This document shows positions 34,697-53,083 of a stretch of 64,000 bases of DNA, piece after piece. The notes below the pieces were generated by a model. That model was not told the DNA's origin, did not search any database, and saw nothing but the letters and a program-made list of their open reading frames with translations. The position numbers were made by a program, and so were the translations under genes. Location of the stretch: the NCBI RefSeq assembly GCF_000620065.1, contig NZ_JHVI01000013.1, positions 1 through 64,000 on the forward strand, written 5' to 3'. This DNA is from Meiothermus cerbereus DSM 11376 (lineage in GTDB: Bacteria; Deinococcota; Deinococci; Deinococcales; Thermaceae). The first letter of the stretch is position 1, and each line of letters begins with the position of its first letter.

Positions 34697-34714
34697 GATT
34701 TTAGATTTATAATC
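34697..34714 (+). promoter_or_regulatory. GntR-type operator over the promoter of the Gfo/Idh gene
   Basis: GATTTTAGATTTATAATC is an inverted repeat (GATTTTA and TATAATC, one mismatch) whose right half contains the -10 box TATAAT (34708-34713), 9 nt above ATG 34723. It matches the minus-strand operator at 52365-52382 at 16 of 18 positions. Confidence 0.7.
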
Positions 34715-34722
34715 CAAAAAGC

Positions 34723-35940
34723 ATGAAACGCAACAAGGAGTTTGCCAACCGCCTCCATGCGCTATCACCCAAGTTTGCCTATGTGCCGCAGGAAGACCGC
34801 TTCCTGATGAACCCCGGCCCCCTCAAGTACCGCTTCAACGTGATTGGGGCGGGGGTGAATGGGCAGGAGCACATCAAAGTGACGCTGCTCGAGGGCAGTT
34901 GCACCATCCACGGCGTCTTTGACCCCAACCCCACCAGCGTGGAGGCCGCCCGGCGCATCAAGGCCCAGTTCAGCCAGGAGCCGCTGGTGGTCTACGAGAG
35001 CCTCGAGGCCGCCTGCCACGACCCCGCGGTGGACGGGCTGATCATCTGCACCCCCAACCACACCCACCTCGAGGTGCTCAAGGTGGCGGTGCAGTCGGGC
35101 AAGCACATCCTGCTGGAAAAGCCCATGGCCACCAACCTGCAAGATGCCTACGAAATCTGGCAGATGGCCCAGAACTACCCCAAGGTACTGCAAATTGGCC
35201 TGCAGTACCGCTTCAAGCCCATCTACGTGGAGGCCATTCACGAGGCCAAGGTGCGCCAGAGCCTGGGCGAGATCAAGACCCTGACCATCCTCGAGCACCG
35301 CGAGCCCTTCCTGGACAAAGTGAAGCAGTGGAACAAGTTTTCCCAGTACTCCGGCGGCACCCTGGTGGAGAAGTGCTGCCACTACTTCGACCTGTTCAAC
35401 CTCTTCGCCGAGTCGCGCCCGGTGAGCGTATACGCCTCGGGCAGCCAGGCGGTGAACTTCCGCGACTTCGAGTACGGCGGCCTAAAGTCAGACATTCTGG
35501 ACAACGCCTTTGTGATTGTGGAGTACCAAAACGGCATCCGGGCCAACTTCAACCTGTGCATGTTCGCACCCATGGTCTACGAGGAAATCGTCATCTGTGG
35601 CGACGAGGGCCGCCTCAAGGCCAGCGAGGGCGTCAACGGCCAGGCCTACTCCAAGTGGGAGAACTACCTCGAGGTCATCTGCCTGCCCGACCGCACCTCC
35701 CGCACCATGACCCCCAGCTACCCCGCCCTCATCGAGGAAAGCGGCCACAGCGGGGCCACCTACTACGAGCACCTGCGCTGGATCGAGGCCATGGACGGCT
35801 TACCCAGCAAGGCGGCCACCGCCGAAGAGGGCTTCTGGAGCGTGGTGGTGGGGGTAGCCGCCGAGGAGTCGGTGAAGCGGGGGGAAAAGGTGTGGGTGAA
35901 GGAGTTGCTCGAGGGGAGTGGGTTGGGGCATCTGAGTTGA
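34723..35940 (+). CDS. Gfo/Idh/MocA family oxidoreductase; candidate NAD-dependent sulfoquinovosidase
   Basis: The 405-residue protein has the NAD-binding fold with GAGVNGQEH (42-50), ICTPNHTHLEVL (109-120) and the EKP motif with Lys133, then the alpha/beta C-terminal domain. An N-terminal extension of about 35 residues is present. Family members oxidise sugars or, in some glycoside hydrolase families (for example GH109 and GH188), cleave glycosides through transient oxidation by bound NAD+. The promoter operator matches that of the sulfoquinovose/sulfolactate operon at 52.4 kb, so I infer membership of that regulon. Cleavage of sulfoquinovosides is one fitting role; oxidation of the free sugar is another. 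Confidence 0.85.
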   Translation: MKRNKEFANRLHALSPKFAYVPQEDRFLMNPGPLKYRFNVIGAGVNGQEHIKVTLLEGSCTIHGVFDPNPTSVEAARRIKAQFSQEPLVVYESLEAACHDPAVDGLIICTPNHTHLEVLKVAVQSGKHILLEKPMATNLQDAYEIWQMAQNYPKVLQIGLQYRFKPIYVEAIHEAKVRQSLGEIKTLTILEHREPFLDKVKQWNKFSQYSGGTLVEKCCHYFDLFNLFAESRPVSVYASGSQAVNFRDFEYGGLKSDILDNAFVIVEYQNGIRANFNLCMFAPMVYEEIVICGDEGRLKASEGVNGQAYSKWENYLEVICLPDRTSRTMTPSYPALIEESGHSGATYYEHLRWIEAMDGLPSKAATAEEGFWSVVVGVAAEESVKRGEKVWVKELLEGSGLGHLS

Positions 35941-35964: not shown

Positions 35965-38541
<2,577 letters not shown>

Positions 38542-38570
38542 AACGCTGCGTGTCCAAAACACACGGGTGC

Positions 38571-38717
38571 TCAGGCCGCACCCATCCAAGGATTGAACAA
38601 ATCGAGCCCCACGATTTGTTCAAAGTCGGCGGGTTGCTTGTCCAACCAGGCCACCACCTGCAATGCAGGTGGTGGCCGCATGAACTCGGAGAGCACGTTG
38701 GTATCGAGCAGAATCAC
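38571..38717 (-). pseudogene. Truncated VapC/FitB PIN-domain toxin
   Basis: GTG 38717 overlaps the antitoxin stop (GTGA). The 48-residue product starts MILLDTNVLSEFMRP and continues to AWLDKQPAD, the first quarter of a PIN-domain ribonuclease with the first catalytic Asp. It then runs into unrelated residues (FEQIVGLDLFNPWMGAA) and stops. The other acidic residues needed for catalysis are missing. A perfect 12-bp inverted repeat (38593-38623) lies at the break. Confidence 0.8.
38593..38623. repeat. 12-bp inverted repeat at the vapC break point
   Basis: TTGAACAAATCG and CGATTTGTTCAA are perfect inverted arms around AGCCCCA. The repeat forms the non-homologous tail of the broken vapC and may be a rearrangement scar or a terminator-like hairpin. 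Confidence 0.6.
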
Positions 38718-38965
38718 GCGGACTCATCCCAGCGAGGCGTCTTGCGCGGCGTTTGGCGTTCGGGCAGTTCGAAGGCTGAATCCGCGACAGCCCGAAACCG
38801 CTCGCGCAGATGGCTACCCAGCCGCATAGAAAGCTGCGTCCCCTCCAGCGCCGACTTGAGAATACGTCGCGCCTCCTCCTCCATCGAGACCCCGTGCCGC
38901 GCCGTCCGAAGCCGCAAGGCTTGCTTGGTGGTTTCATCGAGGTTGCGAATAGTCAAGCTGGCCAT
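38714..38965 (-). CDS. FitA-type ribbon-helix-helix antitoxin
   Basis: The 83-residue protein has the FitA/Arc-like N-terminus MASLTIRNLDETTKQALRLR and MEEEARRILKSALEG, a ribbon-helix-helix DNA-binding fold that dimerises and represses its own promoter. The C-terminal part would wrap the PIN toxin. The ATG at 38965 follows AGGAGGTGAGC, better than GTG 38971. The toxin downstream is truncated, so only the antitoxin half is intact. Confidence 0.85.
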   Translation of the reverse strand: MASLTIRNLDETTKQALRLRTARHGVSMEEEARRILKSALEGTQLSMRLGSHLRERFRAVADSAFELPERQTPRKTPRWDESA

Positions 38966-38987
38966 GCTCACCTCCTTGTCGTGATAT

Positions 38988-39027
38988 CAATGCTAGCATT
39001 GTAGGCAAAGCAATCAAGCCGATCCAA
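38988..39027 (-). promoter_or_regulatory. FitA promoter and palindromic operator
   Basis: On the minus strand TTGGAT (39022-39027), an 18-bp spacer and TACAAT (38998-39003) form a promoter. A perfect 14-bp palindrome CAATGCTAGCATTG (38988-39001) overlaps the -10 box and is the likely antitoxin site. Confidence 0.65.
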
Positions 39028-39032
39028 GGGGT

Positions 39033-39282
39033 TTACTCATCGTCGGCTTCGTCGGGGGCAGGTTCCTCGGTCAGGGTGTCGTCGTGCTCGGAAACCTGCG
39101 ACTCGATAAAAGCGATTTCGTCAGCGGTCAGGCCATAGCGCTGGTATAGCTTGGCGTCGGTCCATGCATGGTCGAGCGGGAGATCGGGGACGAAGGCGTA
39201 AACATGTCTGGGCGCGTCTGGCAATGCAGGTCAGCACATCCGGGTTACGCCCGCGCAGGCTGAAGGGGGCTTGGGTGGTCAT
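39033..39282 (-). pseudogene. Remnant of an Eco57I-like DNA methylase (ends joined by a large deletion)
   Basis: From ATG 39282 (preceded by AGGAGG) the frame reads MTTQAPFSLRGRNPDVLTCI, the N-terminus of a known class of adenine methylases paired with GIY-YIG/helicase proteins. After about 20 residues it loses similarity. In another frame the sequence then gives AFVPDLPLDHAWTDAKLYQR and YGLTADEIAFIESQV, typical of the C-terminus of the same class, ending at 39033. The hundreds of residues between, including the catalytic NPPY-type motif, are missing. The attribution of both ends rests on remembered homologues. Confidence 0.7.
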
Positions 39283-39836
39283 AGCGTGACCTCCTGGGCA
39301 GCCGGGTTCTCACGGTCGTGATACCAGCGCAACGGGTTGTTGGCGATATAGGCGCGGATGCGCTGCAAGGATGGGTCGCTGCGGATGATGTGTTCGTAAT
39401 AATTGCGTTGCCATACGGGTACACCGGGCGTGCCGCGGCGTTCGTTGATATGTTTGGTGGATACCGTTTTGAACGCCCCGACCAACCGGCCAATCGGTTT
39501 GCGTTGCGTTGGTGGGGTAGGGGCGGTTCGGGTAGGGGCGGTTCGCGAACCGCCCCTACAATTATCGTCGGTGATCACGATGATGCCGTGTAGATGGTTG
39601 GGCATGACCACCCATTCATCCAATTCCACATAATCGTATTGAATCCCTAACCATTCCCATACATCGGCAACAATCCTGCCCGCGTCATTCAACCGCATCT
39701 CCCCACCTACCACCTCGCCTAGCAAACACGCTCGGTTCTGCGTACAGATGGTGACGAAATACGCCCCTGCCTGGGCGTAGTCGTATCCCTTCAGTCGGAT
39801 GGACCGGCGGTGATGGTTGTGGAGATCGTGCGTCAT
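39279..39836 (-). mobile_element. RAYT (REP-associated tyrosine transposase, IS200-like HUH fold)
   Basis: The 185-residue protein has the Y1-transposase layout: RRSIRLKGYDYAQAGAYFVTICTQNR at the N-terminus, the HUH motif in VVMPNHLHGIIVI and the catalytic Tyr in WQRNYYEHIIRSD. RAYTs are single-copy domesticated relatives of IS200/IS605 transposases that mobilise REP palindromes. The start overlaps the upstream methylase stop (ATGA) and the stop overlaps the ATG of the methylase remnant. A REP palindrome lies inside the gene and encodes an Arg/Thr/Pro insert. Confidence 0.87.
39517..39559. repeat. REP-like palindrome inside the RAYT gene
   Basis: A perfect 28-bp palindrome (39532-39559; each arm GTAGGGGCGGTTCG or its complement) is preceded by a direct copy of one arm (39517-39530). 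Palindromes of this sequence type are known as REPs that spread with RAYTs. It encodes the low-complexity insert GGSRTAPTRTAPTPP. Confidence 0.8.
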
Positions 39837-40507
39837 GGCAGATCACCGCAGATCGGCCCCGGCGCCAGCGCGGCTAGTTCACGCACCGTCATGGGCGGAT
39901 AGGCCTTGGCCGGCGTGAAAATCTCGTGCTTGCCCAAATGCGCAAAAAGCGACCCTTCTGCGCTGAAGGTTGAGGAGAGGGTGAGGGCATCTAGGCGGAA
40001 GTCGCGACGCTGGTACTTGCCCTTACCCAGGTAGCCCCACTCGGCGAAGGTAATCGGCTGGCCATCGTGGGTACTCATTTTCAGCGCATCGCCATGAATC
40101 AGGTTCTGCGAGAGCACATACGATGCGGCTCGGAAAAGGGGGTTGGTCTCTTCGAGTTCTAGATACTCGGCAAAAATCTCCAGCAGGTTCATCCGGCACT
40201 CGGCAATGTTGTCTTCAAGGAGCTCGATGCCATAAAGACACATCAGCGCGAGCAGGGCGTAGTGCTGCCGCTCAAACTTGGATTTACCGTATTTGATTTC
40301 TACAGCGGCAAGCTTGCGGCGCAAAATAGCTACCAGGAAGTTGCCGCTACCACAAGCAGGCTCCAGAAACCGCGAATCGATTCGCTCAGTTTCTTCTTTT
40401 ACCAAGTCTAGCATCGCCTCAACAAGCCAGGGCGGGGTAAACACCTCACCGTGTTCAGCGACGCGTTTTTTAGATTTTATGTAGCTTACTGGCGTCAAAG
40501 ACTCCAT
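39833..40507 (-). CDS. Eco57I-like SAM-dependent methylase subunit (short form)
   Basis: The 224-residue protein has HGEVFTPPWLVEAMLDLV and the SAM-binding motif I LEPACGSGNFLVAIL, then LCLYGIELLEDNIAECRMNLLEIFAEYL. It ends shortly after FAHLGKHEIFTPAKAYPPMT and has no NPPY-type catalytic motif. Short proteins like this occur as stand-alone partners in front of a larger methylase and a GIY-YIG/helicase gene, so it is probably complete. Start ATG 40507 gives the family-like N-terminus MESLTPVSYIKSKKRVAEHGE in part; the open frame reaches 40576. Confidence 0.78.
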   Translation of the reverse strand: MESLTPVSYIKSKKRVAEHGEVFTPPWLVEAMLDLVKEETERIDSRFLEPACGSGNFLVAILRRKLAAVEIKYGKSKFERQHYALLALMCLYGIELLEDNIAECRMNLLEIFAEYLELEETNPLFRAASYVLSQNLIHGDALKMSTHDGQPITFAEWGYLGKGKYQRRDFRLDALTLSSTFSAEGSLFAHLGKHEIFTPAKAYPPMTVRELAALAPGPICGDLP

Positions 40508-40535
40508 TACGGGTATTTTATGCCAGATTGAAGTC

Positions 40536-40958
40536 TCAAAGGTGATGCCCCTTTTCGGAGATATCTCCAGTAGCAACGGGCTCGGGTTGAGTGTGGAAAT
40601 AAACCTCGGAACGTTCCTTGATTCTGCCCAGGCGAACCAGGCGAGCCGCTATTGCACCCTGGGTTCGCCCGTGACGCTGAGCGATTTCGTTGACGGGTAT
40701 GCCTGAGTCAAAGGCAGCAAGGAGCTCTTTATCTTCATCCACAGACCATGGACTACCAGCCTTTGCGTGAATAGAACTTTTGCGATGGGTTGCTCTATGG
40801 CGCCTAGCCTCTTTATCTAGTGCCTTTGAAGCAACAAAGAGTGCGCGGATGACCTGTGGACTATTTAGCGTGTTTTGTGCTGGCAAGATCTCTCCTGTCT
40901 CGGGGTCGATACCGTTGGCTAGTGCTTCTATGATTTTCCTCGCTTCAAGCGGCGACAT
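40536..40958 (-). CDS. Small helix-turn-helix (Myb/SANT-like) protein of the restriction island
   Basis: The 140-residue protein starts MSPLEARKIIEALANGIDPE and has a C-terminal homeodomain-like segment: PWSVDEDKELLAAFDSGIPV, then NEIAQRHGRTQGAIAARLVRLGRI. This is a probable DNA-binding helix-turn-helix. I recall similar small proteins next to DNA methylases and helicases, but no function is known. It is the first gene of the restriction island, ending 28 bp before the methylase subunit, and may regulate it. Confidence 0.65.
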   Translation of the reverse strand: MSPLEARKIIEALANGIDPETGEILPAQNTLNSPQVIRALFVASKALDKEARRHRATHRKSSIHAKAGSPWSVDEDKELLAAFDSGIPVNEIAQRHGRTQGAIAARLVRLGRIKERSEVYFHTQPEPVATGDISEKGHHL

Positions 40959-42562: not shown

Positions 42563-43552
42563 CTACCCGGCCACCCCCTCGAGCTTCCAGTCCACCTGGG
42601 GATGCATGGGCTTTAGGGCGTGCAGGAGTTCGTTCAGGCGGCTGATGGTCTCGAGGCCCTCTTCGCGCAAGGCCTCGCGCACGCGGGCCTGGTCGGGGTA
42701 GAAGCGCAAAGGGTGCTGCCACACCGCGCGGCCCGCCAGATAACCCCGCGCGCCGGCGTTCAGGGCAGCTTCCAGCATCTGCACAAACTGGTCGGCATTC
42801 AGGCCGCCCGAAAGCAGCAGCCAGGGGGCCGGGAGCTTGCTGTATTCGCGCATGTCGGCCTCGAGGTCCTCCAGGCTGTAGCCCGAGCCGCCCCACTCCT
42901 TCACTAAGCGGGCCGCACCGGGGAAGGCCAGTTTGTAGAGGTCGATGTGGAAGCTGGGGTCGGCAAAAGCCGCGGCGATTTCCAGCGACATCTCGCGCAG
43001 TTTGGCGTTGTAGGCGGCCTCGTCCTCGCCGGGCAGGGGGTAGGGCAGCACCTCGAAGATAAAGAGGCGGTCGGCCCGCTTGCACGCCTCCCCCACCCTT
43101 CGCACGAACTCGAGCTGGTGCTCGACAATTTCCTGTGGGGCGTCGGGGCGGTGCCAGGCCAGCAACTTCAGGCCATCGGCCCCCATCTGTACGGCCCGCT
43201 CCACGCTCCAGCCGGGGATGAGCTGGCTTTTGCGCCAACCGCCCTCGAGGGTCTCGAAGCGGTGGTGCTCGAGGGTCAGCATCAGGCCGGTTTCGCGGGG
43301 CAGGGCAGGCATGGCCGCCGGAAAGGCATAGTGCGGGTCGATCAGGATGCCGGTCACGGCGCGGCCCAGGGTCTCGGCCAGCAGGCCCTTGAGTTCGGCT
43401 ACTTCGGCCCCCACATCCTCGGGGTTGCGGCCCAGGGCTTGGGCCACCAGGTTCATCAAAGGTGGGCGCTGGTCGATGGCCAGGGTGCCAAAGCGCAGGG
43501 CCCCATCACCGATACGGGCATAAGCACGGGCTTTTGCTGGAGTGGTTTGCAT
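42563..43552 (-). CDS. LacD/YihT-type class I aldolase; candidate 6-deoxy-6-sulfofructose-1-phosphate aldolase
   Basis: The 329-residue TIM-barrel protein resembles tagatose-1,6-bisphosphate aldolase LacD and the sulfofructose-phosphate aldolase YihT. Shared parts are LAIDQRPPL at the N-terminus, GADGLKLLAWHRPDAPQE, and the Schiff-base Lys in FHIDLYKLAFPG. In a sulfo-EMP route it would split sulfofructose-1-phosphate into DHAP and 3-sulfolactaldehyde. It is the last gene of the operon, 36 bp after the kinase. The family is clear; substrate is inferred from the suyAB-slcC-comC genes in the same operon. Confidence 0.8.
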   Translation of the reverse strand: MQTTPAKARAYARIGDGALRFGTLAIDQRPPLMNLVAQALGRNPEDVGAEVAELKGLLAETLGRAVTGILIDPHYAFPAAMPALPRETGLMLTLEHHRFETLEGGWRKSQLIPGWSVERAVQMGADGLKLLAWHRPDAPQEIVEHQLEFVRRVGEACKRADRLFIFEVLPYPLPGEDEAAYNAKLREMSLEIAAAFADPSFHIDLYKLAFPGAARLVKEWGGSGYSLEDLEADMREYSKLPAPWLLLSGGLNADQFVQMLEAALNAGARGYLAGRAVWQHPLRFYPDQARVREALREEGLETISRLNELLHALKPMHPQVDWKLEGVAG

Positions 43553-43588: not shown

Positions 43589-44440
43589 CTAGGCGCGGCC
43601 CTGGGATGCCAGGAAGGCCTCTAGCTCGTTGCGGTGTGGCGGCGCAGCGTTGGCACAGTGCAGGGCGGCTACCGCCGAGGCGAACTCGAGCGCCTCGAGC
43701 TCTGTTTGCCCCTCGGCCACCGCCAGGGTAAACGCACCGTGGAACACGTCGCCGGCCCCGGTGGTATCGCGCACGTGCACCTTGTGGGCCGCTACCCGTC
43801 CCCCCGCATACGCGACCCCCTCGGCCCCCAGGGTAACGGCAGCGAATACCTCCAACGCCTGTAGTTGGGCCAAAAGCGCATCCACGCCGCCTTTTTTCAG
43901 CGCCAGCTCTTCCGAGGCCACCACGTGCGTGGCCACCTGAATAAGCCTCCAGTCTTCCTCCCGGTCGCGATCCAGATCGAGCACCACCGGAAGGCCCCGC
44001 GCCCGGGCGGCCTGGCCCAGCCTATACCCGGCGGTGGCCCAGCGCCCGTCCAAAAGCAGCGCCCTCGCCTCCCCAAGCAGGTCTTCCTGGCTCAGCAGCA
44101 GTTCCTCGGGCAGGGCAGGCCGGTAGGGAAAAATAAAGCGCTCCCCCTCCGGCGTCACCAGCACCGCCGAGACCGGGGTGGCCGCGCCCAGCTGGAAATG
44201 GGTTTTGACCCCTTCGGCCTCGAGCAGCTCCTGCAGCCGCTCGCCCGCCGCATCATCGCCCCGGCGGCTTAGCAGGTGGGCCGCCCCCCCCAGCCGGGCC
44301 ACCGCCAGCGCGGCCACTGCGGCCGGGCCGCCGATGGTCTCGCGGTAGGCCCGCACCCCGGTTCGGCTGGCGCGGGGTGGGAACTCCTCGACGTAGTAGC
44401 GCTGATCCAGGTTGGCCCAGCCCACGGTCAGTACCTTCAT
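43589..44440 (-). CDS. PfkB family sugar kinase; candidate sulfofructose kinase
   Basis: The 283-residue ribokinase-fold protein has the N-terminal GGPAAVAALAVARLGG glycine motif and the C-terminal VRDTTGAGDVFHGAFTLAV motif with the catalytic Asp. It phosphorylates a sugar or sugar acid. In sulfo-EMP pathways a PfkB kinase phosphorylates sulfofructose at C1, which fits its place between the isomerase-like and aldolase genes. ATG 44440 overlaps the upstream stop (ATGA), so the longer frame to 44497 is rejected. Specificity is inferred. Confidence 0.82.
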   Translation of the reverse strand: MKVLTVGWANLDQRYYVEEFPPRASRTGVRAYRETIGGPAAVAALAVARLGGAAHLLSRRGDDAAGERLQELLEAEGVKTHFQLGAATPVSAVLVTPEGERFIFPYRPALPEELLLSQEDLLGEARALLLDGRWATAGYRLGQAARARGLPVVLDLDRDREEDWRLIQVATHVVASEELALKKGGVDALLAQLQALEVFAAVTLGAEGVAYAGGRVAAHKVHVRDTTGAGDVFHGAFTLAVAEGQTELEALEFASAVAALHCANAAPPHRNELEAFLASQGRA

Positions 44441-45756
44441 ACCAGCCTGCGCTCCTCCGAACGTGGGGGCAGTACCTCCAGGCCCAGCCAGACACACATC
44501 TCCAGCAGGGCCTCCTCGTGCGCGCCCATCCCCACCGCCAGGTGGTGCGGGATGCGGTGGTTGAGCCAGCTCGCCAGGAACTGCCGGGGGGTGAGGGGTT
44601 CACCAGCCCAGGTAGGGCGGGTAAGGTGCCCTGAGTCGCCGTCGTAGCCCTTATCGCCGTTCAGCACCCCCCCGTGTACCACGGCTTTGCGGCCCGGCAG
44701 CAGGCGCAGGCCGCTGATGGGCCCTGCGCGCAGGGGCATGTCGCGCACGGCGGGCAGGTTGCGGTTGAAGTGCGGCACCAGCCGGGTGGGGCCACCGGCC
44801 CAGACCTGGGGGGCTTCGCCCCCGTGCCAGAGCATCACCCCTTTGGACGAGAAGTGCGAGATGTCCAGCAGGATGGCGGGCCGCCCCGAGATGGCCTTCA
44901 GGGCCAGCATACCGGCCAAGCCCATCACGTCGCCCTCGGGCGCCAGGGTGTAGCCCATATCGGCCAGACGGGCCATGGCCGCATAGGCCATCACCCCGGT
45001 TTGGTCGGGGATTTCCGGCCACTCCCGCAGGGCCACCCCGTCGTAGGGCCGGGCCAGTTTTTCCAGGGCCAGCTCGAGGCGGAAGCTTTCGCGCAAAGCT
45101 TCCAGCGGGTACTCCGAAAGCTCACGAAACGCTGACGCCCGCTCCTCTACCTCGGCCTCTGAGACCGCCGCCAGGGCCGCCCATAGCTCGCTCAGGTCGG
45201 CCTTCTCGACGGTAAGGCCGGTCTCGGGCAGGGCCCCAAAGGCAAAAAAACCCGGCGCATGGCCGCCCAGCCATAGCACGCGGCCTTCGCGCAGCACCCT
45301 GGCCCCGCGTAGGGCCTGTAGGGTGAGCTGCAGGCGGGCCTGGAACCAGGCATCCTCCACCACTCCGTAGAACCACTTGGTGGGCTTTTGCGCCAGCGAA
45401 ACCCCCAGGTTGAGGCCGCAGATTGCGTTCTGCGGCAGGGGGCCGCTCTCCCACACCTCCGGCAAGGCCCACAGCCCCACCGGGATGGGAAGCTCCAGGA
45501 GCGGCATAAAGGCATCGCCGGTGGCAAAGGTCACATGCTGCACCAGCAGTAAATCCAGCTTTGCGTTTTGGGCCGCACGGGCCGCCGCCTCAGCCTGGGC
45601 AGCGTCGACCACCGGCTCGGCCACAAAGGCCAGCTCGAAGCCCAGCTTGGGGCCCAGGGCTTCCAGGGCTTGGCGGCTGCTGTGCTCGAGGCCCAACCTC
45701 GAGCCCCTGAACAAAGGCCGCACGATGGGAACTAGACCAACTCTTAGGTTTGACAT
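44437..45756 (-). CDS. L-fucose/L-arabinose isomerase-like protein; candidate sulfoquinovose isomerase
   Basis: The 439-residue protein has the layout of the L-fucose isomerase superfamily (COG2407 type): an N-terminal Rossmann-like part (RVGLVPIVRPLFRG, LDLLLVQHVTFATGD, GLWALPEVWESGPLPQNAICGLN) and a C-terminal part with a probable metal site (EGDVMGLAGMLALKAISGRPA with a conserved Glu, and His in VPHFNRNLPAV). It would convert an aldose to a ketose. Its neighbours suggest sulfoquinovose to sulfofructose. YihS of Escherichia coli, which does that reaction, belongs to another fold. Confidence 0.72.
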   Translation of the reverse strand: MSNLRVGLVPIVRPLFRGSRLGLEHSSRQALEALGPKLGFELAFVAEPVVDAAQAEAAARAAQNAKLDLLLVQHVTFATGDAFMPLLELPIPVGLWALPEVWESGPLPQNAICGLNLGVSLAQKPTKWFYGVVEDAWFQARLQLTLQALRGARVLREGRVLWLGGHAPGFFAFGALPETGLTVEKADLSELWAALAAVSEAEVEERASAFRELSEYPLEALRESFRLELALEKLARPYDGVALREWPEIPDQTGVMAYAAMARLADMGYTLAPEGDVMGLAGMLALKAISGRPAILLDISHFSSKGVMLWHGGEAPQVWAGGPTRLVPHFNRNLPAVRDMPLRAGPISGLRLLPGRKAVVHGGVLNGDKGYDGDSGHLTRPTWAGEPLTPRQFLASWLNHRIPHHLAVGMGAHEEALLEMCVWLGLEVLPPRSEERRLV

Positions 45757-45792: not shown

Positions 45793-46620
45793 CTAACCCT
45801 TGACTCCACCCTGGGTCAAACCGCCCACTACCCGCTCCTGGAACAGCGCAATCACCAGCGCCACCGGCACCAGGGCCACCACCAGCGCTGCCGAGATGAG
45901 CGGCCAGGGAAAGACGTACTCCCCCTGATAAAGCTGGATGCCCACCGGCAGGGTTCGCATGGCCTTGGCCGGTAACAGCGTGGAGGCCAGCAGGAACTCA
46001 TCCCAACTGTTCACAAACGCCAGGATGGCCGCAGTAAAAACCCCTGGCGCAGCCAGCGGAACCACCACGTGCCACAAGGCCCCCAGCCGGGTGCTGCCGT
46101 CAACCATGGCGGCGGACTCGAGGTCGCGCGGGATGCCCGCAAAAAAGCTCACCAGCGTAAGGGTAGCCACCGGCAACGAAAGCGCAGCGTGAGGCAAAAT
46201 CAGGGCCAAGTAGTTGTTACGCAGACCCAGCTCGTTGAAGGTCTGGTACAGCGGCACCATCAACGAGGCCACAGGAAACATGGAAACCCCCACCAGCAAC
46301 GACAAAATCAGGTTGCGCCGCGGCACATGCAGTCGGGCCAGCGCATACGCCGCCAGGCTGGCCACGCTCACACACAGCAGCGTAGAAAAACCTGCCACGA
46401 TCAGGCTATTCAAAAAGTAGCGGGCCAGGGGCTGCTCCCGAAAAGCTTGCACGTAGTTTTGCAGGGTAGGGTTGTCGGGCCAGTAGGTAATGGGAATGCG
46501 GGTCAGCTCGGCCTCTCCCTTGATGGAGGTCAGGAAAATCCACAAAGCCGGGAAAAAGCCATTTAACACAACGATAGCCGCAGCTATCCATAACCAGATG
46601 CGCGGGTTATTGATTTTCAT
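45793..46620 (-). CDS. ABC transporter permease, MalG-like
   Basis: The 275-residue protein has six transmembrane helices and the EAA-type loop LESAAMVDGSTRLGALWHVVVPLAAPG (about 170-196) that contacts the ATPase. It is the second permease of a carbohydrate-type (CUT1) importer. The terminal LTQGGVKG tail is typical of MalG/SmoH-like subunits. It lies 60 bp after the first permease. No ATPase gene lies in the operon; a shared MsmK/UgpC-like ATPase elsewhere probably serves it. Confidence 0.9.
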   Translation of the reverse strand: MKINNPRIWLWIAAAIVVLNGFFPALWIFLTSIKGEAELTRIPITYWPDNPTLQNYVQAFREQPLARYFLNSLIVAGFSTLLCVSVASLAAYALARLHVPRRNLILSLLVGVSMFPVASLMVPLYQTFNELGLRNNYLALILPHAALSLPVATLTLVSFFAGIPRDLESAAMVDGSTRLGALWHVVVPLAAPGVFTAAILAFVNSWDEFLLASTLLPAKAMRTLPVGIQLYQGEYVFPWPLISAALVVALVPVALVIALFQERVVGGLTQGGVKG

Positions 46621-46680: not shown

Positions 46681-47586
46681 CTAGTCATCGGCACCTCGAA
46701 TGTAGCGCAGGTAGATCACCGTAATCGCCATGCTGACTAAAAACAGCAGCACGGCCAGGGCTGATCCATAACCGAAGTTGAGGTTCTCGATACTGGTCAC
46801 CCGCACGTACATCGCCAGCGTCTCGGTGGCGTTGCCCGGCCCACCTTTGGTCATGGCATAGGGGATGTCGAAGGTTTGAAAAGCGGTGATGGTGCGAAAA
46901 ATCATGGCCACCAGAATGGCCGGCGTGAGCAACGGCAGGGTAATGCGCCAAAAAACCTGCCAGCGGCTTGCGCCATCTACCTCGGCGGCTTCGTAGAGTT
47001 CCTTGGGAATGGTCTGCAAGCCCGCCAGCAAAATAAGGGCTACGAACGAGCTGGTCTTCCAGATGATGGTAAAGCAAATAGCCCAAAAGGCCAGGTCGGG
47101 CCTGAACAGCCAGAATTGGCGCTCGCCCCCCAGGCGCACAATCCAGTCGTTGACCACCCCATACTGGCTATCAAAAAACCACTGAAAAATCAGACCCACG
47201 AACACCAGCGGCAAGGCCCAGGGCAGCAGCAACCCCAGGCGAACCGGCCACTTTACCCGAAAGGGCAGGTTGGCCAGCAAGGCCAGGCCCAGCCCCACCA
47301 CCAGAGCACCCGGAACCGTAACCAGCACAATCAGGGCAGTGTTTCTAAACGCGTTCCAGAAGCGGGCATCCTCGAGGGCGGCTGCATAGTTGGCCAAGCC
47401 GATAAAGCTGGCCTCAGGGCCTTGCGTAAGCTGGTACTGAAAAAAGCTGGTGTAGATGAGCCGTACCACCGGATACAGCGCTACAAAGCCCAGCAGCAGG
47501 CCCGCCGGGAGCAGCAGCCAGACGGCCAGCGCTCGCTCGGACATATCGCCAAAACTTCGTCGGTATGGTTGGGTGGGCACAGACAC
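46681..47586 (-). CDS. ABC transporter permease, MalF-like
   Basis: The 301-residue CUT1 permease has six helices and the EAA loop ELYEAAEVDGASRWQVFWRITLPLL (about residues 196-220). Together with the second permease it forms the channel for the solute delivered by the binding protein. The start is GTG 47586 with AGGAG 7 nt upstream. A 13-bp hairpin separates it from the binding-protein gene, which should lower its expression relative to that gene. Confidence 0.9.
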   Translation of the reverse strand: MSVPTQPYRRSFGDMSERALAVWLLLPAGLLLGFVALYPVVRLIYTSFFQYQLTQGPEASFIGLANYAAALEDARFWNAFRNTALIVLVTVPGALVVGLGLALLANLPFRVKWPVRLGLLLPWALPLVFVGLIFQWFFDSQYGVVNDWIVRLGGERQFWLFRPDLAFWAICFTIIWKTSSFVALILLAGLQTIPKELYEAAEVDGASRWQVFWRITLPLLTPAILVAMIFRTITAFQTFDIPYAMTKGGPGNATETLAMYVRVTSIENLNFGYGSALAVLLFLVSMAITVIYLRYIRGADD

Positions 47587-47661: not shown

Positions 47662-48915
47662 CTAGCGGTATATCGCGCGAAGTCCTTCGATAACTTCTTT
47701 AGCGGCCACTTCTGGGGTCTTGGTGCGGGCCAGCACCGCGTTGAGCGCCTTACGCATCACATCGGCCACCTCGGGATAGCGCGGATGCACCGGGCGGGCC
47801 CGGGCCGATTGCACCACCGGCAGGGCATCGGCAAACCAGGGGTTGGCCTTCAGCACATCGGGATCACGGTAAAGTGACGGGAAAACCGGTAGGTTGGAGG
47901 CCTCGATGGCCAGGATTTTGGAAACTTCCGGGCTCGAGAGGTAGCGCACCAGCTTGTAGGCCTGGGCTTTGTTTTTTGAGAAGTCGGAGATGGTCCACTG
48001 CCAGCCACCAAGGCAGGAGGCCGAGCGCCCGCCTTCGAACTTGGGCAACGGGACTACCCCAATCTTGCCTTTGACCTGGCTGTCAGCGTCGTTTTGAAAT
48101 CTATTCCAGGCGTAAGCAAACAGGGTACCAAAAATCCAGCGGCCTGCCTGCATTTCCTGGCGGATGGTGTCCTGGGCTTTCTCGGCCATGTTGGGCGGAG
48201 AAACCTTGTGTTTGTCCATCAGGTCGAGCCAGAACTGCAAGGAAGCACGCGCCTGGGCCTCGGTCAGGATAAGCTTGCCCCCTTCGTCCACGTCGCCCCC
48301 AGCAGCCCAGATGGGCAGCAGGAAGCTACACACCGTACCCTCGGAGATGTTGCCCATGAAGCCGATCCCGTTGAGGTTGGCGTTGCGCTCACCGGCCAGG
48401 ATGGTCTGAGCCTGCTTAATGGCTTCATCCCAGGTTACGGGGGGCTTGAAACCGTACTTCTCCAAGAGGTCTTTGCGGTAGTACAGGAACTGAGCATCAG
48501 CAAAGCTGGGCAGTGCCACCAGTTGACCATTGATGACGTTGGCTTTGGCATAGGCCGGAAGATACTGCTTGAGCAGGGCTTGCCGGGTAGCCGCTGGCAA
48601 GTACTTATCCAGGGTATCGGCCCACTTGGCCGCGGCATATTGGGCGGGCCGAACCACGTCAATCAAGATGGCGTCGATGCTGGGGTCGCGCGAGGCCAGC
48701 ACAGTAGTGAGGTATTGCTGTTGCTGGTCGGAAGTAGCCCCACCGACTTCAATCTCCACACGCACTCCAGGGTTGCGCTGCTGGTAGGTATCCAAAATTT
48801 TGCGCAGTACATCGGGGCGCTGCTGCCCCCCAACGAACACCCGCAAGCGGGCTTGCTGTGCCAGCGCACCAGACATCACCAAGATAGCAACCAACAACCA
48901 AAAAAACTTCTTCAT
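47662..48915 (-). CDS. Extracellular sugar-binding protein (family 1), candidate sulfoquinovose/sulfoquinovoside binder
   Basis: The 417-residue protein starts with a signal peptide (MKKFFWLLVAILVMSGALAQ) and has the family 1 solute-binding fold (RLRVFVGGQQRPDVLRKILDTYQQRNPGV, LDLMDKHKVSPP, GGWQWTISDFSKNKAQAYKLVRYL). It captures a sugar outside the cell for the two permeases. The ligand is inferred from the operon. GGAGGAGG precedes its ATG, which overlaps the comC stop. A signal II-type Cys is absent, so it may be free in the periplasm. Confidence 0.88.
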   Translation of the reverse strand: MKKFFWLLVAILVMSGALAQQARLRVFVGGQQRPDVLRKILDTYQQRNPGVRVEIEVGGATSDQQQQYLTTVLASRDPSIDAILIDVVRPAQYAAAKWADTLDKYLPAATRQALLKQYLPAYAKANVINGQLVALPSFADAQFLYYRKDLLEKYGFKPPVTWDEAIKQAQTILAGERNANLNGIGFMGNISEGTVCSFLLPIWAAGGDVDEGGKLILTEAQARASLQFWLDLMDKHKVSPPNMAEKAQDTIRQEMQAGRWIFGTLFAYAWNRFQNDADSQVKGKIGVVPLPKFEGGRSASCLGGWQWTISDFSKNKAQAYKLVRYLSSPEVSKILAIEASNLPVFPSLYRDPDVLKANPWFADALPVVQSARARPVHPRYPEVADVMRKALNAVLARTKTPEVAAKEVIEGLRAIYR

Positions 48916-49910
48916 GGGTTTCCTCCTCCTTGTAGATGCAAACCTAGTTTACCGAGTTCGGCTTGTAGTGTCTCGCTAACCTCCACACCTTCTGTCATGG
49001 CTTTTTCTCGTAAAGCGGCCCGGCGCGAACCGGGAATCCGGCCTCCGACCGCTTCAAGAGCCTGGATGAGTTGGGCCACTCGACTGGCATAGCCCAAGCC
49101 AAATGCACCGGGATCGAAGGCTTGGAGCATCAACCCCGGCTTGGCAGCCTGCTCGGGGGGCATCCAGGGTAGGGGCAGCTCGGGCGAGAGCACCTCACCC
49201 GCCAGGACACCCGCCAGAATCTCAACCAGCACCGCCAGGGCAAAGCCCTTGCCTTCCCCAATGGGAATCAAGGAACCTTCCAGGGCTGCCCGAGCATCGG
49301 TGGTTGGGCGGCCCTCCTTGTCAAGCGCCCAGCCCTCCGGGATGGGCGCGCCTTTCTTCGAAGCAGCAATAATTTTGCCCCGGGCCACCACCGAGATGGA
49401 GGTGTCGATGATGATCGGCTGGGGCTGGGCCGGCGCACCCAGGGCGATGGGGTTGGTGCCCAACACCGGCCCAGGGGCAATAGCGGGCGGGGTGTTGGCA
49501 AAAGCTAAGGCCACCAGGCCCTGCTGGGCCAGCCGACCCACATAGGCCGACAACACCCCAGAGTGCCCCGCGCCGCGCACAGCCAGCGTTGCACTGCCCT
49601 GCTCCTGGGCCATCTGAGCCAGCACCCGCACCGCAAAGAGCCCGGCCACCGGCCCTGGTGCGCCGTCGGCATGGAGAATGGCGACACTGGGTTTGGTTCG
49701 TTCCAAACGCATCTGCGGTTTGGCATTCAAGCCACCCGCTTGGAGTTGGCTGGTGTACTGGGCCACACGGGTCAGGCCGTGGCCTACGTTGCCCTCGATT
49801 TCGGCCTCGAGGATCACCTCAGCGAACTCGTTGGCGTGGCCCGGGGCCAGCCCCAGGCTTTGGAAGTGGCTCGAGACCACCCGCAATAGCTCGGAATAGG
49901 GAACCTTCAT
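48912..49910 (-). CDS. comC: Ldh2-type NAD(P)-dependent dehydrogenase; ComC-like (R)-sulfolactate dehydrogenase
   Basis: The 332-residue protein belongs to the malate/L-lactate/ureidoglycolate dehydrogenase family (not the Rossmann type): NVGHGLTRVAQYTSQL, AVRGAGHSGVLSAYV and GKGFALAVLVEILAGVLAGE are typical. ComC members reduce 3-sulfopyruvate to (R)-sulfolactate. The neighbouring slcC and suyAB form exactly the set known from sulfolactate-degrading bacteria. ATG 49910 overlaps the slcC stop (ATGA); the ORF upstream to 50006 is a shadow. Confidence 0.85.
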   Translation of the reverse strand: MKVPYSELLRVVSSHFQSLGLAPGHANEFAEVILEAEIEGNVGHGLTRVAQYTSQLQAGGLNAKPQMRLERTKPSVAILHADGAPGPVAGLFAVRVLAQMAQEQGSATLAVRGAGHSGVLSAYVGRLAQQGLVALAFANTPPAIAPGPVLGTNPIALGAPAQPQPIIIDTSISVVARGKIIAASKKGAPIPEGWALDKEGRPTTDARAALEGSLIPIGEGKGFALAVLVEILAGVLAGEVLSPELPLPWMPPEQAAKPGLMLQAFDPGAFGLGYASRVAQLIQALEAVGGRIPGSRRAALREKAMTEGVEVSETLQAELGKLGLHLQGGGNP

Positions 49911-50833
49911 GCCACCCCCAGGATGCTCAAAACCCCCTCGGCCACCCGCAGCCCCACCGCTTCCTGGGCCTCGGCGGTCAGGCCCGCCACATGGGGGGTT
50001 ATCCACAGGTTGTCCACACCCCGCAGCGGGTGCTGCTCGGGCAGAGGCTCGGGGTCTACCACGTCCAACACGGCTCCAGCCAGATGACCCGAACGTAGGG
50101 CGGCCACCAGATCGGCCTGGTTGACCAGCTCGCCCCGGGCGGTGTTGATCAGGTAGCTGCCCCTGGGCATGGTAGCGATGGTCTCGGCCCGGATCAGTTC
50201 TTTGGTTTCGGGGGTTAGGGGGGCGTGCAGCGAGAGAAACTGGGCCCTTCGCAGCACCTCGGGGGTAGCAACCAGCTCGATCTCGAGGTCTTCTACCGCG
50301 CTCTCCCAGGGCAGGCGCATGGGGTCGGAGGCCACTACCTTCATGCCAAAGGCCCGGGCCCGCTTGGCCACCCGCAAGCCCACCTCGCCCAGCCCCACCA
50401 GGCCCAGGGTTTTGTTCGCCAGCTCAAAACCGCCAAAAGCGCTGCGGTTCCAGCCGCCCCCGGCCACGTGGGCCGCGGCCCTCGCAATGTTGCGGGCCAG
50501 GTGCAGCATGGCGGCCAGCACGTACTCGGCCACCGCAACCGCGTTGATGCCGCGGGCAAAGTAAAGCTGTACGCCGCGGGCTTTGAGGTCGGGCTGCACG
50601 ATGTTGTCCAGGCCCACCCCCAGCCGCCCGACCACCTTGAGTTTAGGCGCAGCAGCCAGCAAGTCGGCATTCACTTGGGTCTGGTTGCGTACCACGAGCG
50701 CGGTGGCCTCGGCCAGCCGGGCCTTGAGGGCTGCGCGGTCTTTCCAGAGGTTGGGGTCGTAATGAACCTCGAGGCCACTTTGCTTTAGGCGCTCGAGCCC
50801 GCTGGGGGTGATGAACTCGCAAACCACAATCAT
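49907..50833 (-). CDS. slcC: D-2-hydroxyacid dehydrogenase family; SlcC-like (S)-sulfolactate dehydrogenase
   Basis: The 308-residue protein has the phosphoglycerate-dehydrogenase fold: VGRLGVGLDNI, NAD-binding GLVGLGEVG (about 145-153), and the catalytic Arg/Glu/His set in NTARGELV, DPEPLPEQHPL and TPHVAGLT. SlcC oxidises (S)-sulfolactate to 3-sulfopyruvate. Together with ComC it inverts the stereochemistry so that SuyAB can act. Its ATG lies 3 bp after the suyB stop. A phosphoglycerate dehydrogenase role is unlikely given the operon and the lack of an ACT domain. Confidence 0.85.
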   Translation of the reverse strand: MIVVCEFITPSGLERLKQSGLEVHYDPNLWKDRAALKARLAEATALVVRNQTQVNADLLAAAPKLKVVGRLGVGLDNIVQPDLKARGVQLYFARGINAVAVAEYVLAAMLHLARNIARAAAHVAGGGWNRSAFGGFELANKTLGLVGLGEVGLRVAKRARAFGMKVVASDPMRLPWESAVEDLEIELVATPEVLRRAQFLSLHAPLTPETKELIRAETIATMPRGSYLINTARGELVNQADLVAALRSGHLAGAVLDVVDPEPLPEQHPLRGVDNLWITPHVAGLTAEAQEAVGLRVAEGVLSILGVA

Positions 50834-50836
50834 GGT

Positions 50837-52018
50837 TCAGGCACTGGGGAACAGCTTGGTGATCACGAACTCGTTGTGCCGCAGAAGTTCAGCAGCGGTC
50901 AGGCGACCATTGACGGTGCGAACAAAAACCTCCAGGATGCGGTCGGCGGCCTGATCAAGATTGATATCTCCCACCAGCAGATCCGGCAGCTTCACGTCAA
51001 TGTGCTCGCTCATGGTGGTGCAGGTGATGGGGTTGGGCGAGATCTTGATGACCGGGATGAGGGGGTGGCCCACGATGTTGCCCTGGCCGGTAGTGAAGAA
51101 GTGCAGCACGCTGCCCCCCGCCGCGCAGAGCGTAACCTGCTCGGCCCCGGCGGAGGAGCTGTTCATGAAAACCAGACCCTGACCCGGCTTGACCGGCTCG
51201 GCGTAGTCCAGCACCGCGTTTACCTTGCGCGAACCAGTTTTCTGGATGTTGCCCAGGGCTTTTTCTTCGATGGTGGAAAGCCCCCCGCGGATGTTGCCCT
51301 CGGTGGGCTGGGAGCCCAGCAGATCTACCCCCTGGGCCTCGATCATGCGGATGTAGTCGTTATAAATCTGCATGAACTTGCGCTTGAGGGCAGGGCTGGC
51401 GCAGCGGTTGGCGATCAGGTGCTCGCCACCGGTCAGCTCAGACGTTTCGCCGAAGATGACCGAGGCCCCCATGTCCACCAACCGATCCACCACCCGGCCC
51501 TGGGCTTTGTTGCCGGCCAGGCCCAAGGTGGGGTCGGACTCGCCACACTTTATGGAGAGCACCAGCTCGGATACCTGAACCGGCTCGCGCTTGAGCTCGG
51601 AGGCATCCTGCACCATGCGGTAGGCCGCCCGGCTGGCTGCGTTGATCACGTTGAGGTCGCCGTGGCGCTCGATGGAGAAGGTCTCGACGGGTTTGCCAGT
51701 TTTGGCGATGGCCGAGGCCACCCGGTCGGTCCATTTGGGCTCGATGCCGATCACCACCACCCCGTGTACGTTGGCATTGGCCCCGTGGCCCGAGAGGGTG
51801 CGGAAGGTGAGCTCGAGATCCGCACCAAACTGCAAGCGCCCATAGGGGTGTGGCAGGGCCGTGGTTCCGTTAATCAAGCGGGCCACGCCCTCAGCGGCGG
51901 CGTTGGACAGGTCGTCCACCGGCAGGATGAGCACGTGATTGCGCACCCCCACCGCCCCGTTGGGGCGACGGTAGCCGGTGAGCGCCAAGCCTTTAGAAGC
52001 TACTTTCCTGGGCATCAT
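50837..52018 (-). CDS. suyB: (R)-Sulfolactate sulfo-lyase, large subunit
   Basis: The 393-residue protein is the UxaA-C-terminal-like subunit of sulfo-lyase, which splits (R)-sulfolactate into pyruvate and sulfite. It matches the SuyB proteins I remember in long stretches: GYRRPNGAVGVRNHVLILPV with DDLSNAAAE, TALPHPYGRLQFGADL, KCGESDPTLGLAGN, FGETSELTGGEHL, QPTEGNIRGGLSTIEEKALG and NPITCTTMSEHIDV. Altronate dehydratases share the fold but are normally a single chain with both parts. The start overlaps the suyA stop by 4 bp, giving coupled subunits. Confidence 0.88.
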   Translation of the reverse strand: MMPRKVASKGLALTGYRRPNGAVGVRNHVLILPVDDLSNAAAEGVARLINGTTALPHPYGRLQFGADLELTFRTLSGHGANANVHGVVVIGIEPKWTDRVASAIAKTGKPVETFSIERHGDLNVINAASRAAYRMVQDASELKREPVQVSELVLSIKCGESDPTLGLAGNKAQGRVVDRLVDMGASVIFGETSELTGGEHLIANRCASPALKRKFMQIYNDYIRMIEAQGVDLLGSQPTEGNIRGGLSTIEEKALGNIQKTGSRKVNAVLDYAEPVKPGQGLVFMNSSSAGAEQVTLCAAGGSVLHFFTTGQGNIVGHPLIPVIKISPNPITCTTMSEHIDVKLPDLLVGDINLDQAADRILEVFVRTVNGRLTAAELLRHNEFVITKLFPSA

Positions 52019-52341
52019 CGGCCTCCTTTGGCTTTGGGATTACCCTTGCTTTTTCCATAATCCCAGCGCAGGGTGCGGATGTTGTGCACGTGCACATACC
52101 CGCCTTTTTTTACGGGCCGGGTCATACGGCCCACCTTTTCGCCATACTCGATGACCACGTGGCCTTCGGGCATGTCCTTGAGGGCGATTTTGTGCCCCAA
52201 GGGGATGTCCTCCAGCAGCTTAACCTTGTGGGCTTTTCCGCCCTCGAGGCTATGGATGGTCAGCTCCTCGCCAGCTTTTAAATCGGCCACCGCAACCGCT
52301 ACATCATCGGTGCTTTTATGCGCTAAGGCCCTATGTGCCAC
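52015..52341 (-). CDS. suyA: (R)-Sulfolactate sulfo-lyase, small subunit (SAF domain)
   Basis: The 108-residue protein is a SAF domain: HKSTDDVAVAVADLKAGEEL at the N-terminus, DIPLGHKIALKDMPEGHVVIEYG in the middle and the typical SuyA ending GGYVHVHNIRTLRW, followed by a basic tail. With SuyB it forms sulfo-lyase. The start is GTG 52341, 5 nt below GGAGG. It is the first gene of the ten-gene operon, whose promoter is at 52366-52394. Confidence 0.87.
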   Translation of the reverse strand: MAHRALAHKSTDDVAVAVADLKAGEELTIHSLEGGKAHKVKLLEDIPLGHKIALKDMPEGHVVIEYGEKVGRMTRPVKKGGYVHVHNIRTLRWDYGKSKGNPKAKGGR

Positions 52342-52364: not shown

Positions 52365-52394
52365 GATTTTATATCTAAAATCTTTTATAGTCAA
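52365..52394 (-). promoter_or_regulatory. Promoter and operator of the sulfo-sugar operon
   Basis: On the minus strand TTGACT (52389-52394), a 17-bp spacer and TAAAAT (52366-52371) make a good promoter for suyA. The palindrome GATTTTATATCTAAAATC (52365-52382, plus strand) has perfect 7-bp arms around 4 bp and covers the -10 box. It lies between suyA and the divergent GntR gene, the standard place for the binding site of such a regulator. Confidence 0.75.
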
Positions 52395-52417
52395 TGTGCT
52401 AAACTGAAAGACCAAGG

Positions 52418-53083
52418 ATGACCCTCAACCGCACCACCCTGAACCGCGAAGCCTACAAGGCGCTCAGGCAGGCCATTCTGGGGCGCAAGATTCCCCCCGG
52501 CCAGAAACTGGTGGTGCGGGTGCTGGCCGAAGACCTGGGGCTCTCCCCCACCCCGGTCAAGGAAGCCCTAGCAGCGCTGGAGCGCGAGGGGCTGGTAGTG
52601 GCGGTGCCCCACCGGGGCTATTTTGTGTTGGAGCCAAGCCTCGAGGATGTGCGGGAGATCTACAGCCTGCGCGAGGTGCTGGAGGGGCTGGCAGTCCGAT
52701 TAGCCGTCGAGAATGACGGAAGGGCCCTTTTTAGGAAGCTCGAGCGCCTGTTTAGCAAGCAGCGCGAAGCCGCCGACCAGGGCGATATTGGCACCTATGG
52801 CGACCTAGACCTGGCCTTCCACCGCACCTTCTGGGAAGCCGCCGGCAGCAAACGCCTGCTCGCCACCGCCGAGACCATAGACGGACAAATTCGCATGCTC
52901 ATCAACAGCTCGGCGGCCATCCCAGGGCGCCTGCCCCAGTCCCGCGCCGAACACGAAGCCATCTTGCAAGCGGTACGTGACAAAGACCCCGAGGCTGCGG
53001 AAGCTGCCATGCGAACCCACGTCCGCAACGCAGGGCGGGCGCTGGAAAGCTTTTTACTGGCCAGAGAAGCCCCGGATCGCTAG
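52418..53083 (+). CDS. GntR/FCD family transcriptional regulator of the sulfo-sugar operon
   Basis: The 221-residue protein has a winged helix at about 10-70 (EAYKALRQAILGRKIPPGQK, VLAEDLGLSPTPVKEALAALEREGL) and an FCD ligand domain from about 85 with metal-binding residues in DLAFHRTFWEAAG, RAEHEAI and RTHVRNA. FCD regulators usually repress catabolic operons until a sugar acid or similar ligand binds. It is divergent from suyA with a shared 76-bp region that contains the palindromic operator. The likely inducer is sulfoquinovose, sulfolactate or an intermediate. Confidence 0.88.
   Translation: MTLNRTTLNREAYKALRQAILGRKIPPGQKLVVRVLAEDLGLSPTPVKEALAALEREGLVVAVPHRGYFVLEPSLEDVREIYSLREVLEGLAVRLAVENDGRALFRKLERLFSKQREAADQGDIGTYGDLDLAFHRTFWEAAGSKRLLATAETIDGQIRMLINSSAAIPGRLPQSRAEHEAILQAVRDKDPEAAEAAMRTHVRNAGRALESFLLAREAPDR

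Follow-up and report, generated by a model that had tools for sequence, protein, structure and literature searches.

A proposed palindromic operator shared by a predicted sulfoquinovosidase gene, a sulfosugar operon and a candidate sulfite exporter gene in Meiothermus cerbereus

In the 64,000-nucleotide stretch of Meiothermus cerbereus DSM 11376 DNA analysed here (the window; Table 1), an AT-rich sequence over the promoter of a gene for a Gfo/Idh/MocA protein (gfo, or sqgA) reappears between a sulfosugar operon (the suy operon) and its divergent neighbour gntR. This raises the question of whether the genes are controlled together and, if so, by which protein and for what purpose. In our estimate, at a probability of roughly 84%, the sequence is an operator belonging to a small sulfosugar regulon that comprises gfo, the suy operon with gntR and an unlinked tauE gene, and that works by the mechanism proposed below.

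Table 1. Features of the window, with positions counted from its first nucleotide
Feature	Position	Strand	Remarks
Operator 1 (gfo/sqgA)	34697-34714	+	GATTTTAGATTTATAATC; overlaps -10 box
Operator 1, possible extended palindrome	34699-34719	+	TTTTAGATT-TAT-AATCcAAAA
gfo promoter, -10 box TATAAT	34708-34713	+	9 nt 5' of ATG; short-leader or leaderless, Deinococcus-Thermus type; from sequence
Gfo/Idh/MocA protein, predicted GH188 NAD+-dependent sulfoquinovosidase (SqgA-like)	34723-35940	+	405 aa; from sequence, residues and fold
DeoC/LacD-family aldolase, probable sulfofructose-1-phosphate aldolase	42563-43552	-	
PfkB-family kinase, probable sulfofructose kinase	43589-44497	-	
Isomerase, distant kin of sulfoquinovose isomerase SftI	44437-45756	-	57.5 bits, under the 700-bit cut-off
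ABC permease 2	45793-46620	-	
ABC permease 1	46681-47586	-	
ABC sugar-binding protein	47662-48915	-	
Ldh_2 family, ComC-like sulfolactate dehydrogenase	48912-49910	-	
2-hydroxyacid dehydrogenase, SlcC-like	49907-50833	-	
SuyB-like subunit, GD_AH family	50837-52018	-	
SuyA-like SAF-domain subunit, (R)-sulfolactate sulfo-lyase	52015-52341	-	GTG start
Operator 2, between divergent suy operon and gntR	52365-52382	-	GATTTTAGATATAAAATC on minus strand
suy operon promoter, TTGACT-17-TAAAAT	52366-52394	-	-10 within operator 2
gntR, likely extended -10	52397-52405	+	TGCTAAACT; from sequence; kept in relatives
GntR-family regulator with FCD domain, probable repressor, putative operator binder	52418-53083	+	

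The two sites in the window are identical at 16 of 18 bases. With up to three mismatches allowed, only 0.01 matches are expected per shuffled window, and none of 100 window shuffles held three matches. A first-pass annotation of this DNA had pointed to just this likeness and had placed a -10 box within both sites, and both statements hold (TATAAT at 34708-34713; TAAAAT at 52371-52366, with TTGACT 17 nt upstream). A loose palindrome pattern already revealed a third close site in the genome. When the whole 3.03-Mb assembly was scanned with the refined pattern GATTTTAGATNNANAATC at no more than one mismatch, exactly three places were found: upstream of gfo, between suyA and gntR, and on another contig (C52:68188-68205), directly upstream of a TauE/SafE gene (PF01925, E 2e-50). 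The reversed control pattern found none. TauE/SafE is a sulfite exporter family, and tauE fits as a third member because the SuyAB lyase of the operon would release sulfite. No further members were found in the assembly with AGATTTTAGATNNNNAATC at up to two mismatches, and a looser pattern added only scattered places without the GATTTTAGAT core. Rather than many unrelated matches, the genome-wide scan proposed by the first-pass annotation thus gave three places, all at functionally linked genes. A chance match between AT-rich sequences, which the same annotation had thought improbable, is ruled out by these counts, and the shuffles agree.

The operator is well conserved among relatives. Across 18 genomes of the genus, the pattern at up to two mismatches occurs at 60 distinct places, 52 of them at the same three genes (gfo 18, gntR/suy 18, tauE 16) and eight elsewhere; the reversed control gave none at up to one mismatch and no more than two per genome at up to two. 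Between species, the mean pairwise identity of the gfo operator is 0.95, against 0.33 for the flanking DNA upstream, and in the relatives compared the operator always stops a few bases 5' of the start codon. In most of them the palindrome at gfo spans 21 bp, TTTTAGATT-TAT-AATCTAAAA, and the window copy departs from it by one mismatch; in Calidithermus (g2) and in g4 genomes the gfo site is rearranged, to TTTTGAATCTAAGATTTATAATC. Of 24 genomes whose GntR orthologue is at least 57% identical, 23 have the site at up to one mismatch, compared with one of the 17 that have no such orthologue; wherever a close orthologue occurs (25 genomes), the site adjoins gntR. Judged from these genomes, the presence of the operator follows that of the regulator. 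Three more distant genomes (G019, G029 and G037) keep gntR and the site, with no gfo orthologue found, and in G019 and G037 suyA and suyB adjoin them. Elsewhere, in genome G017, a perfect operator-like palindrome, GATTTTAAATCTAAAATC, lies within a CRISPR spacer (L078:1501-1518, equivalent to C217:2603-2620; array repeat GTTCCACTCGGGGTTTTCCTCGAGTGAGGATTGAAAC). It was rejected as an additional regulon place, and may reflect chance or a spacer against operator-carrying DNA.

How the sites lie relative to the promoters suggests what the operator does. At the gfo promoter, where no -35 box was found, the -10 box stands close to the start codon, an arrangement (short-leader type) common in Deinococcus-Thermus (PMC12340547). 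Operator 2 covers the suy -10 box and lies just upstream of the extended -10 of gntR, whilst the tauE site is 13 nt upstream of a separate TATAAC. A -10 box is therefore covered by two of the three sites (gfo and suy), which suits a repressor, and a repressor that occludes RNA polymerase would be the simplest reading of this geometry. The candidate is the product of gntR, which combines a GntR winged helix (PF00392, E 2e-15) with an FCD domain (PF07729, E 3e-32). A palindromic operator stands at its own promoter and is conserved together with the gene, and the protein probably binds the GATTTTAGATNNANAATC palindrome. In domain composition and in having a palindromic operator it resembles other FCD-type GntR regulators (TIGR03338 phnR_burk, PDB 7xp0), but its similarity to members that have been characterised or solved is no more than distant, and its operator sequence and regulon are unmatched in the papers found.

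What, then, does the gfo product do? Its closest named homologues, at 93-95% identity, come from Meiothermus hypogaeus, M. taiwanensis and a Meiothermus sp., and we know of no assayed member in its own clade. The best PDB sequence matches are 8qc2, 8zn9 and 8qc3 (E 7.5e-66 to 1.2e-61; next match 6e-18), all solved sulfoquinovosidases that score far above other Gfo/Idh/MocA structures. The AlphaFold model (mean pLDDT 84.4) likewise has sulfoquinovosidases as its first 12 fold matches. For the GH188 family, the key residues and the mechanism have been described (PMC10755693, PMC11465081). Identity to FlSqgA is 39%, with nine active-site residues retained: the catalytic K107, Y136, E189, H193 and H321 (PMC10755693) correspond to K133, Y162, E216, H220 and H342 here, and the sulfonate-site R166, L170 and K172 to R193, L197 and K199. 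Eight of the nine are invariant in a 21-sequence alignment, among them the catalytic five, R193 and K199, and L197 is nearly so. Homologues at 55-70% identity from Chloroflexi, SAR324, Trueperaceae and Bacillaceae have SuyAB, sulfo-SMO or sulfo-EMP genes as neighbours. SuyAB was found at 11 loci, the sulfoquinovose monooxygenase type at eight with the monooxygenase, and sulfo-EMP genes at 11 (one also with SuyAB), many other loci being too short for judgement; Marinomonas loci had no close match to any of these markers within 10 kb. A search of the genome for GH31 proteins found none, and a few Bacillaceae relatives possess one besides their GH188-like protein. Close homologues (58%) also occur on archaeal contigs of Heimdall- and Lokiarchaeota MAGs (L183, L195), with a GH31 gene near the L195 copy.

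GH188 membership is thus well supported by the sequence and fold matches, the kept residues, the homologue neighbourhoods and the lack of a detected GH31, and gfo very likely encodes an NAD+-dependent sulfoquinovosidase of that family. The first-pass annotation had offered either glycoside cleavage or sugar oxidation as its step. Of these, the evidence points strongly to cleavage rather than to net oxidation of a sugar, and the enzyme groups with sulfoquinovosidases rather than being clearly assigned to another sugar.

The operon supplies a sulfo-EMP set with a SuyAB ending (isomerase, kinase, aldolase, SuyAB and sulfolactate dehydrogenases), the substrates being assigned by homology. Read from 52341 to 42563, it appears to take sulfoquinovose, a sulfosugar of plants, to pyruvate and sulfite inside one cell. 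No sulfolactaldehyde dehydrogenase gene was found in the operon or under the same operator; the genome has 11 distant aldehyde dehydrogenase matches, the best 36% identical to a Bacillus-cluster enzyme (C10:29823-31220). Two single loci elsewhere, from SAR324 and an unclassified bacterium (L172, L176), hold gfo, SuyAB, SlcC, ComC, isomerase, kinase and aldolase together at ~30-60% identity, which points to a cassette that is old or has been transferred.

The gfo gene had been described as distant from the operon whose operator it shares. The shared site stands, but the distance applies to this genome only. In the 14 genomes with gfo and gntR on one contig, the distance between them ranges from 10.6 to 25.0 kb and is 17.7 kb in the window; the operon itself takes up ~10 kb of this interval, gfo is convergent to its 3' end and in several relatives adjoins it. 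Between gfo and the operon in the window (35965-40576, minus strand) lie a methyltransferase-like ORF and a protein that resembles type IIG restriction enzymes, with T5orf172/ResIII regions, in what looks like an inserted defence island.

Could the site be something other than the operator of the GntR/FCD protein? Both sites in the window contain a -10 box and start-adjacent -10 boxes are common in the phylum (PMC12340547), so they might resemble each other merely as two AT-rich leaderless promoters (TATAAT with flanking A/T). Across the 18 genomes, though, the 10 bases 5' of the -10 (ATTTTAGATT) are ~90% identical against 33% for the flank, the pattern occurs genome-wide at three genes of one pathway only and the tauE motif is upstream of its TATAAC rather than over it. 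On the contrast between operator and flank we reject promoter similarity alone, which retains a very slim chance indeed. A somewhat more serious proposal, although still an unlikely one, is that the motif serves another regulator, or an activator, and that the divergent GntR is merely a neighbour. Proximity and co-occurrence are no proof of binding, and the position of the tauE site, upstream of the -10, would be open to an activator too. Against this stand the constant adjacency of site and gntR, the near absence of the site from genomes without an orthologue and the two sites over -10 boxes, which suit a repressor.

The remaining doubts concern the enzyme and its sugar. Most Gfo/Idh/MocA proteins are dehydrogenases and the NCBIfam matches of this one are inositol-type dehydrogenases (all far under cut-off), so that a genuine shared site might precede an ordinary sugar dehydrogenase, for sulfoquinovose or inositol for example. 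We regard this as improbable: sulfoquinovosidases rank first by sequence and by fold with a wide gap, a ranking that disfavours any other dehydrogenase identity, every GH188 catalytic and sulfonate-binding residue is retained, and homologues lie within isomerase-based sulfo-EMP clusters, which need no sugar dehydrogenase. It also seems distinctly unlikely that the regulon serves a different sulfosugar such as sulfofucose. The isomerase and aldolase are only distant from known ones and sulfofucose breakdown also ends with SlcC, ComC and SuyAB (PMC12421959), but the GH188 enzymes assayed to date cleave sulfoquinovosides and homologues of the window protein lie within typical sulfoquinovose clusters.

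On the preferred reading, a sulfoquinovose regulon under the GntR/FCD protein, gfo, the suy operon and tauE are very likely switched on together. The regulator, bound at the suyA/gntR site, would silence the suy operon and its own promoter, whilst a second bound site would block the gfo -10 box and a third would lie upstream of the -10 of the unlinked tauE. A pathway intermediate (sulfosugar or sulfolactate) would presumably bind the FCD domain and release the regulator. The gfo product, once made, would cleave sulfoquinovosyl glycerol with catalytic NAD+ by the GH188 mechanism; the operon would import the sugar and convert it through isomerase, kinase and aldolase to sulfolactaldehyde, which a dehydrogenase would oxidise to sulfolactate. 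SlcC and ComC would invert the sulfolactate and SuyAB would split it into pyruvate and sulfite, a toxic product that the putative exporter TauE probably removes from the cell. The shared regulon of the first-pass annotation is thus largely upheld, with three corrections: gfo is hardly distant, cleavage is favoured and a sulfite exporter is added.

The enzyme belongs to a family already on record, and gene sets resembling this one have been described from Actinobacteria (PMC11465081) and from Paracoccus (PMC12421959). With FlSqgA and ArSqgA (PMC10755693) the window protein shares its fold, the published catalytic and sulfonate residues, association with a sulfoquinovose cluster and the lack of a detected GH31; it differs in being only ~35-39% identical to these characterised GH188 enzymes, in an N-terminal extension of ~34 residues common to its clade and in a gene that stands alone, apart from the operon. 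The actinobacterial GH188 clusters of the Y160 group likewise carry SuyAB, a D-3-phosphoglycerate-dehydrogenase-like enzyme, a fucose-type isomerase, a kinase, an aldolase and an ABC transporter (PMC11465081), whereas here the protein has the usual Leu (L197, equivalent to L170) rather than Tyr, the operon is without a sulfolactaldehyde dehydrogenase gene and the host belongs to the Thermaceae. The Paracoccus sulfofucose pathway has the same C3 end, with sulfolactate inversion, SuyAB lyase and TauE export, but an Entner-Doudoroff-like upper pathway and sulfofucose as its sugar (PMC12421959). A search of the open-access literature found no paper on this pathway in Thermaceae, nor any on this regulator and operator, which is in itself weak evidence.

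It is reasonably likely that individual cells of Thermaceae mineralise sulfoquinovose with one FCD-type GntR regulator, not described before, in sole control; its operator overlaps promoters of the short-leader type and would couple glycoside cleavage to all the steps that lead to pyruvate and sulfite and to the export of sulfite. If true, no regulon for sulfoquinovose would have been described from a thermophile before this one. The regulon leads one to expect the entire pathway from sugar to sulfite in a single thermophile, would offer a heat-stable GH188 enzyme, names a candidate sulfite exporter and gives an exact, testable operator.
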